Part shown: positions 173 to 30,928 of the stretch, piece after piece
Layout: each line of letters begins with the position of its first letter
How positions within the stretch are numbered: the first letter of the stretch is position 1
From: Bacteroidota bacterium
GTDB taxonomy: Bacteria; Bacteroidota; Bacteroidia; Palsa-948
Length of the DNA stretch: 35,085 bases
NCBI GenBank assembly: GCA_003164895.1
Contig: PLUL01000029.1
Location: 1-35,085 of the forward strand
Direction of reading: 5' to 3'
The notes under the pieces: generated by a model
What the model was told of the DNA's origin: nothing
The model's input: the letters and a program-made list of their open reading frames with translations, nothing else
Database searches by the model: none
Position numbers and translations under genes: made by a program

Positions 173-3100
173 ATGAAAAGAAATTTACTCATAGTAATTT
201 TTTTTATTGCAACACTTCTAAGTGCTGATTTTGTTTTTGCACAGGTGCAGATTAGCAATAAAACAACCTTGCCCAATGAAAATGATTTGGTGGCGAAAAA
301 AATTGCATTCATTGATAGTGTGCGCAAGTCAAACAAAACAAAAGAACAGCAGGATCATATTTTTTACAAATCCCTCACTGAACAAGGATTCACCCGAAGG
401 CAGGTTGATAGTTTGCATAAAGTTGCTGACCCCAATTTTATTATTCCTGTACAATTACAAAATAATTCAAGTAACGATTATCAAAACCCGAATGCATATA
501 AATGGTCTAATACTCCTGTAGTATTAACTACCGGGCCCGAACAGGATTGCATGAATGGCATTCAGGTTTGTGCAACATCCTATACACAAAATACCTCCTA
601 CACTGGCTTTGGAACCATGCAAGAGGTTTACAACACGTGTTTGCTTTCAGATGAAACGTATTCAGTGTGGTATATTTTTACAGTGCAGAGTGGCAACACT
701 TTTGACTTCACCATCAATACTAACCATGACTATGATTGGGCAATTTATGATCTTACAGCCATAGGCGGGTGCAGTCACGTTCCAACTTCTGCCCCGGTGA
801 CTTGTAATTATTCAGGCACTTATGGAAACACCGGTATTTCAACTGCGATGGGAGGGTTTTCAAACAATACAAATGCTGCAGGAATACCTTGGAACGCTGA
901 CCTCCCTGTTGTAATGGGACATACTTATGCCATGATTGTTAACAATTACTCAATGGACTTATTAGGATACACGCTCACGTTTGGTGGTAATGCTGTCATT
1001 ACCGATAATGTTGCACCCACTATTACATCCGCAATTAATAATTGCAATAATACAGTTACCCTGAATTTTTCTAAACCTATAACTATTGGTCCTATTGTTG
1101 GGCATCCTAACATAGCTGCGTCTCTGGATGCGGATGGCTCCGATTTCAATATTACACCTGCCGGATTTACTTGGACAACCACTTCTGTTGGTAACGGTAA
1201 TATGGCATCGCAGGCAATATTAAATTTAACAGGAACACCTGCTTCCGGTGTATATACAATTACTGTTAAGAACGGGAATGATTTAAATACTTTGTTAGAT
1301 CATTGCGGCAATGCCATGGCAGTTGGTACCTCCATAACATTTAATTATCTTGGTGCTGTTACTGCCAGTGCTTCTCCCGCCTCTGTTTGTGCGGGTGGAT
1401 CATCCAATCTTTCTGTGTCTAATTTAGCCGGAGCCACGTATGTCTGGACACCTTCTGCTGGTTTGACTCCGAGTGCAATTGTTTATAATCCTGTTGCAAC
1501 CCCTAATGCAACTACAGAGTATCAATGTGCAGTTACTTACGGCGGTTGTACTGGTGTAGGAACCACAACAGTAGCAATATCTCCAACTCCAATTGTTAGT
1601 ATTTCACCTATGAATCCTGTGCTTTGCAGCGGAACAACAAGTCTTGTTGCGTCTTCAACTAACTGCACTGGTTGTGTTTACACTTGGGCTGGACCAGCTC
1701 CAGCACCTTCTACCGGAGCAACTTTGGTTGGAGCCGGGGCCGGCTCTTTCACTGTAACCGCAAGTTCAACTACTTGTGGAACGAGTACTGTTTCTACCAC
1801 TGTATTTCTTGCATCTGCTTTACCAGCTAATTATTGTAGTATTTATTATGTTACTACGGCAGGAGGAGCTGCACCGCAAGACGGATCATCCATTGCCACT
1901 GCAGCAAACGCTTCCACTTTACCATCGGTGATGACAGCTGTTGCATGCAACGGTGCAACAATTAAAATGGCTACAGGAACGTATACGCTTTCTAATCCGT
2001 TAACCTTACCTAACAATGTTACCATAGAAGGTGGTTATGATAATTTATTTCAAACAAAATCAAGTGCTGCAGGGACAACTACTATTACAAGAAATACCAG
2101 TAATATTGAAGGCACTGCCAATGTGGATCCTAGAATTACAGCTCTCATTTGTAATGGCATTTCTAATTTTAGATTGCAGGATTTAACTATTACAACTTCA
2201 AATGCACCAGTAGCAAGTACGTTGGCTGGAAATAATGTAGGTATTTCAACCTATGGTATTTATATAAACTCTTGCAGCAATTACAATATTGTAAGATGCC
2301 AAATTACCCCTGGCACAGGAGGCACAGGAGGCACAGGAACTACAGGTGTTGGTACATATGGAGGAGATACCCCCGGCACCGGAGGAGGTGGTGGAGGTAG
2401 TGCTCCCGATGGAAATTGTGGAGGAAGTGGTAGTCAAGGAAATCTAGGCAACGCAGCGTCCAGTGGTGCTGGTGGTGGTTCTCGCGGTCCAACATGTAAT
2501 TCAAGTGGGTGTAATTTTTTTGGCTGTAGTTCAAACGGCTGTACTGCCGGTACTGGAGGTACTGGAGGTACTGGGGCAGCAGGAACTGCCGGAGCAGCTG
2601 GTTCAACTCTCGGTCTTTCAACTGCAACATATCAACCTGCTGGTCAGGCAGGTGCAGGAAATCATGGATTTGCAGGAGGAGGAGGAGGAGGAGGAGGTGG
2701 TGGAAGTATTGGAACTTGTTGTACATGCGGTTGCGGCGGTGGAAATGCAAATGGTGGCATAGGAGGTTCGGGTGGGAGAGGTGGTCTTGGTGGAACTGGT
2801 GGTTATGGAGGTGGAGGATCTTTTTCCATATTTGTTTTTAGCAATGGTGCAAATGGAAGTGTGATTGATTGCCAAATGGCAGCTACTGCAGGTGCAGGTG
2901 GTGCAGGTGGTGCAGGTGCGGGTGGAGTTGCTGGTGCCGCTGGAGCTGCAGGAACTGCCTATGGAGGATGTAATGGAGGTCAAGGTGGAAATGGAGGAAC
3001 TGGAGGAACAGGAGGAGTAGGTGGAGCAGGAGGAACAGGAGGAACAGGAGCAGTTGCTACTGTTGCTATTGTTTCAGGTTCTAATGTAACTTATATAAAT

Positions 3101-27593: not shown

Positions 27594-29267
27594 ATGAAAA
27601 TGAAATTCCTCTCGACATTTTTCTTTTTTGTTTGTTTCTCGGAAAATCTTTTTACACAGAATTGGGATTGGGCGAAAGTTGTTGGGGGTGTTAGAAGTGA
27701 TGAGGGTAACTGCGTAAGCACAGACGGTGTTGGTAATGTTTTCGTTACAGGTTATTTTTACAGTCCTACCATTGCTTTTGGCTCTACCATACTCACTAAT
27801 AAAGATACATCAGGAAATACCCAAGATATATTCATCGCCAAATTTGATGCTTCAGGAAATGTTTTGTGGGCGAAAAATGTCGGTGGAAGTGGTAATGATT
27901 TCGGGCAAAGTATAAGTACAGACGGCAACGGCAATGTATTTATTACAGGCGGATTTGAGAGTTCTACCATCATTTTCGGCTCCGACACTTTAATCAATTT
28001 AGGAATTCAAAATATTTTCATAGCTAAGTATGATGCCTCTGGCAATTTGCTCTTTGCGAAAAGTGTTGGAGGGTCTTCTCAAGATGTAGGTTATAGCATA
28101 AGTACAGATGGCATAGGAAATGTATTTGTTACAGGTTGGTTTCAAAGCCCATCAATCACTTTTGGTTCTACGACACTAACCAATCAAGGATTCACTAATA
28201 TATTCATAACTAAATATGATGCTATTGGCAATGTGCTTTGGGCGAAAAGTGTGGCAGGAAATGCTGATGATTATGGTGTTGGTGTCAGCACTGACGGCAG
28301 TGGCAATGTTTATCTAACGGGCTCTTATGGTTATACCCTTACTTTCGGTACTACTATATTATCTAATACCGGAAGTGCAGAATTTTTTATTGCTAAGTAT
28401 GATGCTTCTGGGAATGTACTTTGGGCGAAAAGTGCGAGTGGAAGTTCTAATGGTAACAGCATAAGTACCGATGGTATTGGCAATGTGTTTGTAACTGGTT
28501 TTTTTAAGAGTTCCACCGTCACTTTTGGTAACACTATCTTAACCAATTCAGATTCGGCACCTGATATATTCATAGTCAAATATGATGCTTTGGGAAATGT
28601 ATTATGGGCAAAAAGCTCTACGGGAACAAGTACTGATGTAGGTTGCGGTGTTAGTACAGATGGCATTGGCAATGTATATTTAACTGGCTATTTTAATAGC
28701 TCATTAATCTCCTTCGACTCAGACACAATAACCAATGCAGGTTATTGGAATATTTTTCTTACAAAATACGATGCTTCGGGAAATGTAATTTGGGTGAAAA
28801 GTGCACGGGGTGATGGTGGCGATATGGGTTACAGCGTCAGCGCGGATGGTAGTGGCAATGTTTTTATTACTGGAATATTAAATAGTTTCGTTACTATTTG
28901 CGGTTCCACAACTTTAACTAATACAAATATGGGGGGTACTAATATATTTCTTGCCAAATTAAACGGTATTAGTGGAATCAACGAAATTAATTTAGACAAC
29001 TCCTTTGAAATTTATCCAAATCCCACTAATGGAATGTTTACAATACAAGCCAACCTGCCTACCGGACAGGCAGGTAGCCATCAGCTCTTAGCTAATAGCC
29101 AAATAGAAATTTACAATGTAATGGGGGAAAAAGTTTACAGCAATTCCCAATTACCTCAATCAACTCAATTAACCATTAACCTTTCTGCACAAGCAGTCGG
29201 AATTTATTTCCTGCAACTCACCACTCAACAAGGAATTGCGAGGAAGAAAATTGTGATTAGCCGTTAG
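27594..29267 (+). CDS. Secreted seven-repeat (SBBP-type) beta-propeller protein with T9SS sorting domain
   Basis: The 557-residue product has a signal peptide (about 1-22, ending ENLFTQ; ATG 27600 would drop two residues). Seven copies of a roughly 60-residue SBBP-like repeat follow (each with STDG.GNVF.TG, FGSTTLTN-like and KYDASGNVLWAKS), consistent with one seven-bladed propeller at about 23-460. A T9SS type A sorting domain closes the protein (YPNPTNGMFTIQ...GIYFLQL). That domain is interrupted by about 16 residues around a DNA palindrome encoding LPTGQAG (488-494). The function is probably structural or binding at the cell surface. A short leaderless-type promoter lies at the start. Confidence 0.9.
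   Translation: MKMKFLSTFFFFVCFSENLFTQNWDWAKVVGGVRSDEGNCVSTDGVGNVFVTGYFYSPTIAFGSTILTNKDTSGNTQDIFIAKFDASGNVLWAKNVGGSGNDFGQSISTDGNGNVFITGGFESSTIIFGSDTLINLGIQNIFIAKYDASGNLLFAKSVGGSSQDVGYSISTDGIGNVFVTGWFQSPSITFGSTTLTNQGFTNIFITKYDAIGNVLWAKSVAGNADDYGVGVSTDGSGNVYLTGSYGYTLTFGTTILSNTGSAEFFIAKYDASGNVLWAKSASGSSNGNSISTDGIGNVFVTGFFKSSTVTFGNTILTNSDSAPDIFIVKYDALGNVLWAKSSTGTSTDVGCGVSTDGIGNVYLTGYFNSSLISFDSDTITNAGYWNIFLTKYDASGNVIWVKSARGDGGDMGYSVSADGSGNVFITGILNSFVTICGSTTLTNTNMGGTNIFLAKLNGISGINEINLDNSFEIYPNPTNGMFTIQANLPTGQAGSHQLLANSQIEIYNVMGEKVYSNSQLPQSTQLTINLSAQAVGIYFLQLTTQQGIARKKIVISR
29053..29075. repeat. Palindromic element inside the T9SS sorting-domain coding sequence
   Basis: ACCTGCCT (29053-29060) and AGGCAGGT (29068-29075) are perfect 8-bp inverted arms around a 7-base loop. 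The element is read in frame as LPTGQAG. The surrounding protein fits the sorting-domain pattern better if about 16 residues here are an insertion. Only one copy is in the window. Confidence 0.65.
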
Positions 29268-29274
29268 AGCATCT

Positions 29275-29290
29275 TCACAGCCACACATCC
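29275..29290. repeat. Isolated in-phase unit of the 21-bp array
   Basis: CTTCACAGCCACACATCC (from 29273, core ACATCC at 29285) has the subtype A layout, 8 bases after the upstream stop codon. Its core is exactly 63 bases (three periods) before the first unit of the continuous array, although the two periods between do not match. Confidence 0.4.
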
Positions 29291-29347
29291 CAAATCAATA
29301 ATGAATAAGGAATCATGAGCAATCAATAATCAATCTTTCGGAGTTAC

Positions 29348-29746
29348 ACATCGGACTATCACAACCAGACATCCAACCTTCACAGTCGGACATCCAACCT
29401 TCACAATCAGACATCCAACCTTCACAGTCGGACATCCAACCTTCACAGTTAGACATCCAACCTTCACAATGAGACATCCAACCTTCACAGTTGGACATCC
29501 AACCTTCACAGTTAGACATCCAACCTTCACAGTCGGACATCCAACCTTCACAATGAGACATCCAACTGCGTTAATGAAACATCCGACTGAGTGAATGAAA
29601 CATCCAACTGAGTGAATGAAACATCCGACTGAATGAATGAGACATCCAACTGAGTGAATGAAACATCCAACTGAATGAATGAAACATCCAACTGCGTTAA
29701 TGAAACATCCGACTGAATGAATGAGACGTCCAACTGAGTGAGTTGC
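29348..29746. repeat. 19-unit 21-bp tandem array with two unit subtypes
   Basis: The core ACATC (ACGTC in the last unit) recurs every 21 bases without a single phase slip from 29348 to 29726. Units up to 29537 continue as CAACCTTCACA plus a variable 5-base tail such as GTCGG, ATCAG, GTTAG or ATGAG (subtype A; the first unit is divergent). Units from 29558 on continue as CAACTG or CGACTG plus AGTGAATGA-like sequence (subtype B). Open frames on both strands arise because 21 is a multiple of three and the units lack stops; no start or codon signal supports translation. The array fills most of the 680-base gap between a T9SS cargo gene and the pyruvate dehydrogenase gene. Confidence 0.95.
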
Positions 29747-29896
29747 CTCTATCTAATAGCTAAAATCGTTGAAAATTGAGGTTTTTTGTTTCAAACTTCT
29801 TACTTCCTTCAAAAGAGTGCTTTTTTAATTCAATCTGTGGAGACATCCCGATACGTGCCAGAACAGACTACTCGATGTTACACACCCGATTTTTTC

Positions 29897-29904
29897 TACA
29901 TTTG
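29897..29904 (+). promoter_or_regulatory. Putative -7 promoter element for the pyruvate dehydrogenase gene
   Basis: TACATTTG matches TAnnTTTG and lies 43 bases before ATG 29948, in the non-repetitive end (29747-29947) of the gap. No clear -33 element is seen. Nothing else is recognisable in that 200-base segment. Confidence 0.45.
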
Positions 29905-29947: not shown

Positions 29948-30928
29948 ATGAAAACCATTCAATTTAGAGAAGCACTGCGCGAAGCCATGACAGAAGAAAT
30001 GCGCAGGGACGAACGCGTGTTTCTCATGGGCGAAGAAGTGGCTGAGTACAATGGCGCTTACAAAGTGAGCCAGGGAATGTTGGCTGAGTTTGGCGCTAAG
30101 CGCGTGATAGATACTCCCATTGCCGAACTAGGTTTTACCGGAATCGGTGTGGGTGCTGCCATGAATGGTTTGCGTCCAATAATAGAATTCATGACTTTTA
30201 ATTTTTCGCTTGTTGCCATTGACCAGATTATAAACAGTGCGTCAAAAATGTTGAACATGAGTGGCGGACAGTTTCCTGTTCCTATCGTGTTTCGCGGAGC
30301 TACCGGTTCGGCAGGACAACTTGGAGCGCAACATTCCAATTCGTTTGATTCGTGGTACGCAAACTGTCCTGGATTGAAAGTGGTTGTTCCTTCAAATCCA
30401 GCAGATGCAAAAGGACTTTTAAAATCTGCCATTCGCGATAACGACCCTGTAATTTTTATGGAAAGCGAGCAGATGTATGGCGATAAAGGCGAAGTTCCTG
30501 AAGGAGAATATTTAATCCCGATTGGTGTTGCGGATATAAAACGTGTAGGAAGTGATGTTACAATCGTAAGTTTCGGAAAAATTATTAAAGAAGTTTACAA
30601 AGCTGCCGATGAATTGGCGAAGGAAAATATTTCTGCCGAAGTAATTGACCTGCGCTCTATTCGTCCTATTGATTACGCCACGGTTATTGAATCTGTAAAG
30701 AAAACAAATCGTTTAGTTGTAGTTGAAGAAGCATGGCCTCTCGCTGCAATTTCCTCTGAGATTGCTTATTATGTTCAGAAAAATGCTTTTGATTATTTGG
30801 ATGCTCCGATTCGCAGAGTGAATTCAGAAGATGTTCCTCTTTCTTATGCATCTACACTTGTTGAACCTGCATTGCCGAATGCGGGAAAAGTGATTCGTGC
30901 AGTGAAAGATGTCCTTTATCTTTCGTAA
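29948..30928 (+). CDS. pdhB: Pyruvate dehydrogenase E1 component subunit beta
   Basis: The 326-residue product is the beta half of the thiamin-dependent E1 heterotetramer that decarboxylates pyruvate for the dehydrogenase complex. Landmarks are MGEEVAEYNGAYKVSQGM at the thiamin site, RVIDTPIAELGFTGIGVGAAM, and FRGATGSAGQLGAQHSNSF (potassium/cofactor region). The C-terminal transketolase domain has VIDLRSIRPIDYATV and VVEEAWPLAAISSEIA, and the protein ends at DVLYLS. Branched-chain 2-oxoacid E1 beta is the main alternative, but the motifs fit the pyruvate type. The alpha subunit and E2 are not in the window. It is convergent with the FtsB/DivIC-like gene, with only two bases between stops. Confidence 0.93.
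   Translation: MKTIQFREALREAMTEEMRRDERVFLMGEEVAEYNGAYKVSQGMLAEFGAKRVIDTPIAELGFTGIGVGAAMNGLRPIIEFMTFNFSLVAIDQIINSASKMLNMSGGQFPVPIVFRGATGSAGQLGAQHSNSFDSWYANCPGLKVVVPSNPADAKGLLKSAIRDNDPVIFMESEQMYGDKGEVPEGEYLIPIGVADIKRVGSDVTIVSFGKIIKEVYKAADELAKENISAEVIDLRSIRPIDYATVIESVKKTNRLVVVEEAWPLAAISSEIAYYVQKNAFDYLDAPIRRVNSEDVPLSYASTLVEPALPNAGKVIRAVKDVLYLS

Follow-up and report, generated by a model that had tools for sequence, protein, structure and literature searches.

A phased 21-bp tandem array upstream of a pyruvate dehydrogenase gene is one copy of a dispersed intergenic repeat element in a Bacteroidota genome

The stretch of DNA analysed here (hereafter the window, 35,085 nucleotides) is the entire contig C56 of the Bacteroidota assembly G000, which consists of 80 contigs and 3.25 Mb. 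On its plus strand, a cargo gene (27594..29267), whose secreted product has SBBP beta-propeller repeats and a T9SS sorting domain, is followed by a gene for the beta subunit of a pyruvate/2-oxoacid dehydrogenase (PDH-beta; 29948..30928), and a tandem array lies between them. Read on the same strand, it is composed of a 5′ leader unit, GGAGTTACACATCGGACTATCACAACCAG (29340..29368), nine A-type units resembling ACATCCAACCTTCACARTYRG (29369..29557), eight B-type units resembling ACATCCRACTGARTGAATGAR (29558..29725), a terminal unit, ACGTCCAACTGAGTGAGTTGC (29726..29746), and a conserved 3′ tail, GAGTTGCCTCTATCTAA...ACTTCCTTCAAA (29740..29813). Because the conserved tail extends to about 29813, the feature is longer than the initial annotation stated. 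An isolated, decayed unit-like stretch (29268..29290, plus strand) stands three periods 5′ of the array, directly 3′ of the stop codon of the cargo gene (TAG, 29265-29267). It includes the relative TTCACAGCCACACATCC at 29285, in phase with the array and 63 bp 5′ of it, where such a unit had been claimed, and it has a TTCACAGCC.CACAT-like motif in common with another contig of the assembly, C15. On the other side, 151 bp 3′ of the array, TACATTTG (29897..29904, plus strand) resembles the Bacteroidota −7 consensus TAnnTTTG, and we take it to be a plausible −7 element, a putative promoter box of the PDH-beta gene. Two other repeats in the window may be recorded here. A palindrome-like CTGCCTACCGGACAGGCAG at 29055-29073, the only one in the window, lies in the part of the cargo gene that encodes the T9SS sorting domain. 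It is read there as LPTGQAG and has the appearance of a repeat inserted in frame into a conserved domain. Several GGT/GGA-rich repeats of 9, 18, 24 and 36 bp, detected by TRF at 2312-3054, probably belong to a glycine-rich repeat protein.

How regular is the array? In steps of 21 bp from 29348, 19 successive ACATC units (ACGTC at 29726) can be read up to the last base at 29746 with zero indels. TRF reports two period-21 arrays, at 29359-29566 and 29552-29741, both with 0% indels, and identity within the array is 0.85 at lag 21 but about 0.2 at a lag of 20 or 22. When the window was shuffled 300 times, the longest run in phase came to 3 units, against 19 in the array. These readings agree with the earlier description of 19 cores spaced exactly 21 bases apart without slip, and the units read in register also display the abrupt change of type at 29558 with the phase kept, the new type starting at base 10 of a unit (from ACATCCAAC to TGCGTTAATGAA). 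It was also asked whether the array might be an artefact of assembly. It is not obviously one, because its units differ from each other and because a related array elsewhere in the genome breaks the assembly rather than collapsing.

That related array came to light when the units were searched in the genome and its relatives, as the initial annotation had advised. BLAST and pattern searches located a second long array at two contig ends, C15:13519-13644(+) and C62:18396-18174(-), which are probably the two pieces of one array that the assembly did not cross, the joining being our inference, and a third copy, at C43:15850-15990, with two units only. The leader unit is common to C56, C15 and C43 (18/21 identity between the leader unit of the window and unit 1 of C43). 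The tail, with the aligned pattern GAGTTGYCTCYATCTAA..G.TAAAATCGTTG...ACTTCCTYCAAA, is common to C56, C62 and C43; its C43 and C62 versions are 80% and 78% identical to that in the window, and in both of them a counterpart of the terminal unit opens the tail. The array is therefore one copy of a dispersed intergenic repeat element, whose unit number differs from locus to locus: 2 in C43, 19 in the window and at least about 15 in C15/C62. The C43 copy has flanks without synteny to the sister species. Upstream of the second array, at about 9720-9781 of L049 (C15), the end of a T9SS sorting-domain gene (GIYFLQL-like ... KKLVISR*) is present as a piece not joined to any long ORF, and a T9SS sorting domain thus stands 5′ of the C15 array as well as of the window array. 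Among 60 relatives, the sole BLAST matches were AT-rich heptamer arrays in G054, which matched the upstream spacer. Exact patterns for the unit pair and for the tail had no match in GTDB genome contigs, in which records of the source genome may themselves be absent, and the exact B-unit pattern had none in viral contigs. The family was found in this one genome only, and no change of unit number within a species was seen for it.

The two-unit copy gives a clue to the A/B switch. When the leader unit of the window is placed immediately before its last unit and tail, the sequence agrees with the C43 copy in 95 of 115 columns. The A-type units match the leader unit at 13-16 of 21 positions and the tail unit at 10-13, and the B-type units match the tail unit at 14-16 and the leader unit at 11-13. 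This resemblance of A units to the first unit and of B units to the last suggests that the switch most likely marks two founders that were amplified separately. The simplest history to be read from the alignments would be a two-unit element of which both units were amplified in the window and only the leader type in C15/C62. Expansion from a two-unit founder, which had been put forward for this array, is thus supported by a two-unit form that carries the same tail, but the C43 copy could also be a longer array that has collapsed, and it would then look identical to the founding form.

The initial annotation went on to suggest that the array is a series of protein-binding sites controlling the pyruvate dehydrogenase gene, that is, an operator or enhancer for the downstream PDH-beta gene. 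Both lie on the same strand, and the array ends 151 bp 5′ of the promoter-like box. However, in the sister species G003, where both cargo gene and array are absent, the PDH-beta gene stands about 185 bp behind etfB and still has the promoter-like box; indeed TACATTTG is present in G000, G003 and G005, species with and without the array. The C15/C62 and C43 copies, moreover, adjoin unrelated genes (a Peptidase C26 gene; a short secreted protein and a gene presumed to be DUF58-like from our reading of its sequence). The proposal is not supported by these comparisons, and it seems very improbable that the array serves as an operator specific to PDH.

Then, to what kind of known repeat does the element belong? 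The iterons of plasmid origins are likewise direct repeats, with a spacing of about two helical turns. The window array is like them in this respect, but no replication initiator or origin context was found, the genes beside the array being the T9SS cargo gene and PDH-beta, and here many unrelated unit sequences occur on the chromosome. The nearest published kind is the BrickBuilt minisatellite/MITE of Porphyromonas gingivalis, which has 19 copies, always intergenic, with 1 to 22.8 imperfect 23-nt units (indels up to 6%) between a leader and a tail, and terminal inverted repeats (TIRs) matching IS5-family elements (PMC4596501). Like BrickBuilt, the present element is a dispersed, intergenic Bacteroidota repeat with imperfect units of conserved and variable positions. 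Its several copies (C56, C15/C62 and C43) have a short non-repeated leader and, at three loci, a tail of about 75 bp, and its tandem unit number varies between copies (2, 19 and at least about 15), as in VNTR minisatellites. Unlike BrickBuilt, it has a unit of 21 bp without indels, it occupies three loci, and its period is common to unrelated families. No terminal inverted repeat links the two ends in C43 or in the window, C43 having an internal hairpin only, and neither target-site duplication nor transposase was found for the copies. Given the dispersal and the leader and tail, and in view of the missing TIR, we therefore regard it as working like a BrickBuilt-type element and do not file it as a MITE.

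As a rule, one expects minisatellites with different sequences to have different periods as well. This is not what is seen in the genus. In TRF samples picked regardless of arrays (400 kb of the own genome plus the window, and 399 kb of the same genus; 834 kb in total), non-coding arrays had a period of 21 bp or a multiple of it (42, 63, 84) in 8 of 9 cases in the own genome and in all 11 in the same genus, 19 of 20 altogether. A pattern search that selected ACATC arrays was left out of these frequencies. One own array, L139 7116, was placed among the non-coding ones, since the open frame over it lies upstream of a signal-peptide start, as an extension. L136, which may be the exception, resembles a coding repeat rich in alanine. 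The unit sequences of these period-21 arrays are unrelated, e.g. AGTTCCTTTTATGTCAAAAGG, CTTGCAAGAAAAATGACTTTG and AATGGAACCATAGTGATTAAG. By extrapolation, 7 arrays per 400 kb correspond to about 57 per genome. Other families also have similar arrays, strongly so in G135. In a class-wide sample of 648 kb, 21-bp arrays occurred in two genomes only, with heptamers, 22, 24 and other periods elsewhere, and some non-coding arrays of the class have periods of 19, 22, 24 or 40; the lock on 21 bp is therefore lineage-specific. Literature searches found no published account of such a lock. What is unusual here is the genus-wide 21-bp period in unrelated arrays, the dispersed minisatellite itself being of an ordinary kind. 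In the own genome, the L145 family is dispersed as well, its copies having the array in common and not the flanks. Upstream of the same gene in two species, G009 and G182, orthologous arrays of about 18 and 14 units have their unit order reshuffled; this pair (L157 6557-6929 and L158 1444-1733) offers a natural case for array turnover. At about 6400-6700 of L135 (own C12), a badly decayed 21-bp array combines a AATTTGAAA part that stays constant with stretches that vary, and ACATCCAAC and AATGAG pieces resembling the window family lie near it.

The phase is kept as well. In minimum spanning trees, the window array has 28 substitutions and six own arrays have 289, all of these arrays being read in register and without an indel, although zero indels are partly expected where homopolymers are short, and the units have no long ones. 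The ratio of indels to mismatches was 0.035 in all period-21 TRF rows vs 0.255 in other non-coding arrays, about sevenfold lower, and 0.052 in heptamers, with the reservation that detection at period 21 favours indel-free arrays, those with indels being harder to detect. Coding for seven-amino-acid repeats was rejected as a reason for the period: open frames numbered 2.2 vs 1.8 in column-permuted controls, and 1 vs 2.1 for the window, and where some arrays are covered by long open frames, these extend upstream beyond the real starts, L169 being a possible exception. A role tied to orientation or termination was also rejected, there being no excess of convergent sites and no orientation preference.

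What holds the period at 21 bp? One answer is selection that keeps the units two helical turns apart, so that proteins bind on the same face or the DNA curves in a plane, with a chromosomal role such as nucleoid organisation, insulation or local promoter effects; different sequence families would then do one job. The locked period with few indels across unrelated units speaks for it, as do dyads in several families. Strong dyads, such as GACATCATATGATGTC and CTCACATGGGATGTGAG, were noticed in the 21-bp arrays L160 6021-6196 and L159 7075-7372. The predicted bend of the units slightly exceeds that of column-permuted controls, with a mean z of 0.55-0.61 at 10.5 bp where ordinary non-coding 21-mers give 0.08, but the wedge values of this test are provisional and the 7-bp harmonic is nearly as strong, and curvature was set aside as a weak excess. 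Against selection for spacing stand the lack of a motif common to the families, the lack of an orientation preference, an orthologous locus without the array, and mean lag profiles with no 10-11 bp signal within units and only a faint 7-bp one. We therefore consider such selection rather doubtful. Of the same-face spacing constraint suggested in the initial annotation, the 21-bp period in many unrelated arrays and the rarity of indels hold, but a duplication ruler gives the same pattern, and the cause of the lock may be either a ruler of this kind or same-face selection. A sequence-independent ruler, in the form of a duplicating enzyme or of a chromatin protein sensitive to phase, might create or maintain tens of unrelated intergenic arrays per genome, whose only common property would be the exact spacing of two B-DNA turns. 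This is a tentative idea, which we rate as possible though below an even chance.

Since 21 is also a multiple of 7, old heptamer arrays of Bacteroidota might have been re-amplified in threes. Heptamer repeats are intergenic tandem repeats for the most part, in the same phylum; VNTRs of F. psychrophilum are mostly heptamers (PMC4501049), and heptanucleotide TAACTGA repeats are known from Bacteroidota (PMC4679880). A weak excess at lags 7, 14, 28 and 35 (0.29 vs about 0.245) and units in G018 and G156 that look like heptamer triplets agree with such an origin. In L152 605-954 (G005 C173), a 21-bp array is followed about 16 bp on by a perfect CAGAACC x 16, which suggests a link between 7-bp and 21-bp arrays. 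However, the units here are diverged 21-mers unlike 7-bp units, most arrays have no more than a faint heptamer signal, and no long arrays with a period of 28 or 35 are seen where those of 21, 42, 63 and 84 abound. A heptamer origin thus appears unlikely, though not negligible.

Another reading concerns RNA: transcribed from the minus strand, the array may be predicted to form a series of hairpins in a leader or a non-coding transcript. Folding of the whole window array on this strand beat column-permuted controls (z −2.3, P 0.0125), and the two-unit C43 copy forms an inverted repeat of 15+15, though an imperfect one (P 0.009), both values coming from several tests without correction. On the other hand, the fold of the related C62 array was not significant, and a B block folding back on the A block was rejected, the gapless identity being at chance. 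Over 38 arrays, the hairpin potential against column-permuted controls had a mean z of −0.7, with 24% below −2, and neither known RNA families (Rfam) nor tRNAs were found. Such an RNA is improbable, and we treat the hairpin, inverted-repeat and bend signals as leads, not results.

Taken together, we think it quite probable that the array is a dispersed minisatellite that expanded in place, with turnover of units in 21-bp steps and no operator function specific to PDH. Such an element has a leader unit at its 5′ end, a fixed tail of about 75 bp at its 3′ end and, between them, 21-bp units in varying number. It may have spread as a short form, perhaps of two units, and then have grown in place by slippage or unequal exchange; in the window copy, units of the leader type and of the tail type would each have been amplified, giving the A/B switch. 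The family would be one among many sequence-unrelated 21-bp arrays of the genus, in which units may be gained and lost two B-DNA turns (2 x 10.5 bp) at a time and in no other way, this being possibly the only step tolerated by the duplicating process or by a phase-sensitive function of DNA binding or bending. Such arrays break assemblies, and they are possible strain markers. Unrelated arrays across the genus share one period, equal to two helical turns, and hardly ever slip, and this makes it testable how repeat length is set, whether the duplicating machinery dictates it or selection favours a given spacing on the face of the DNA.
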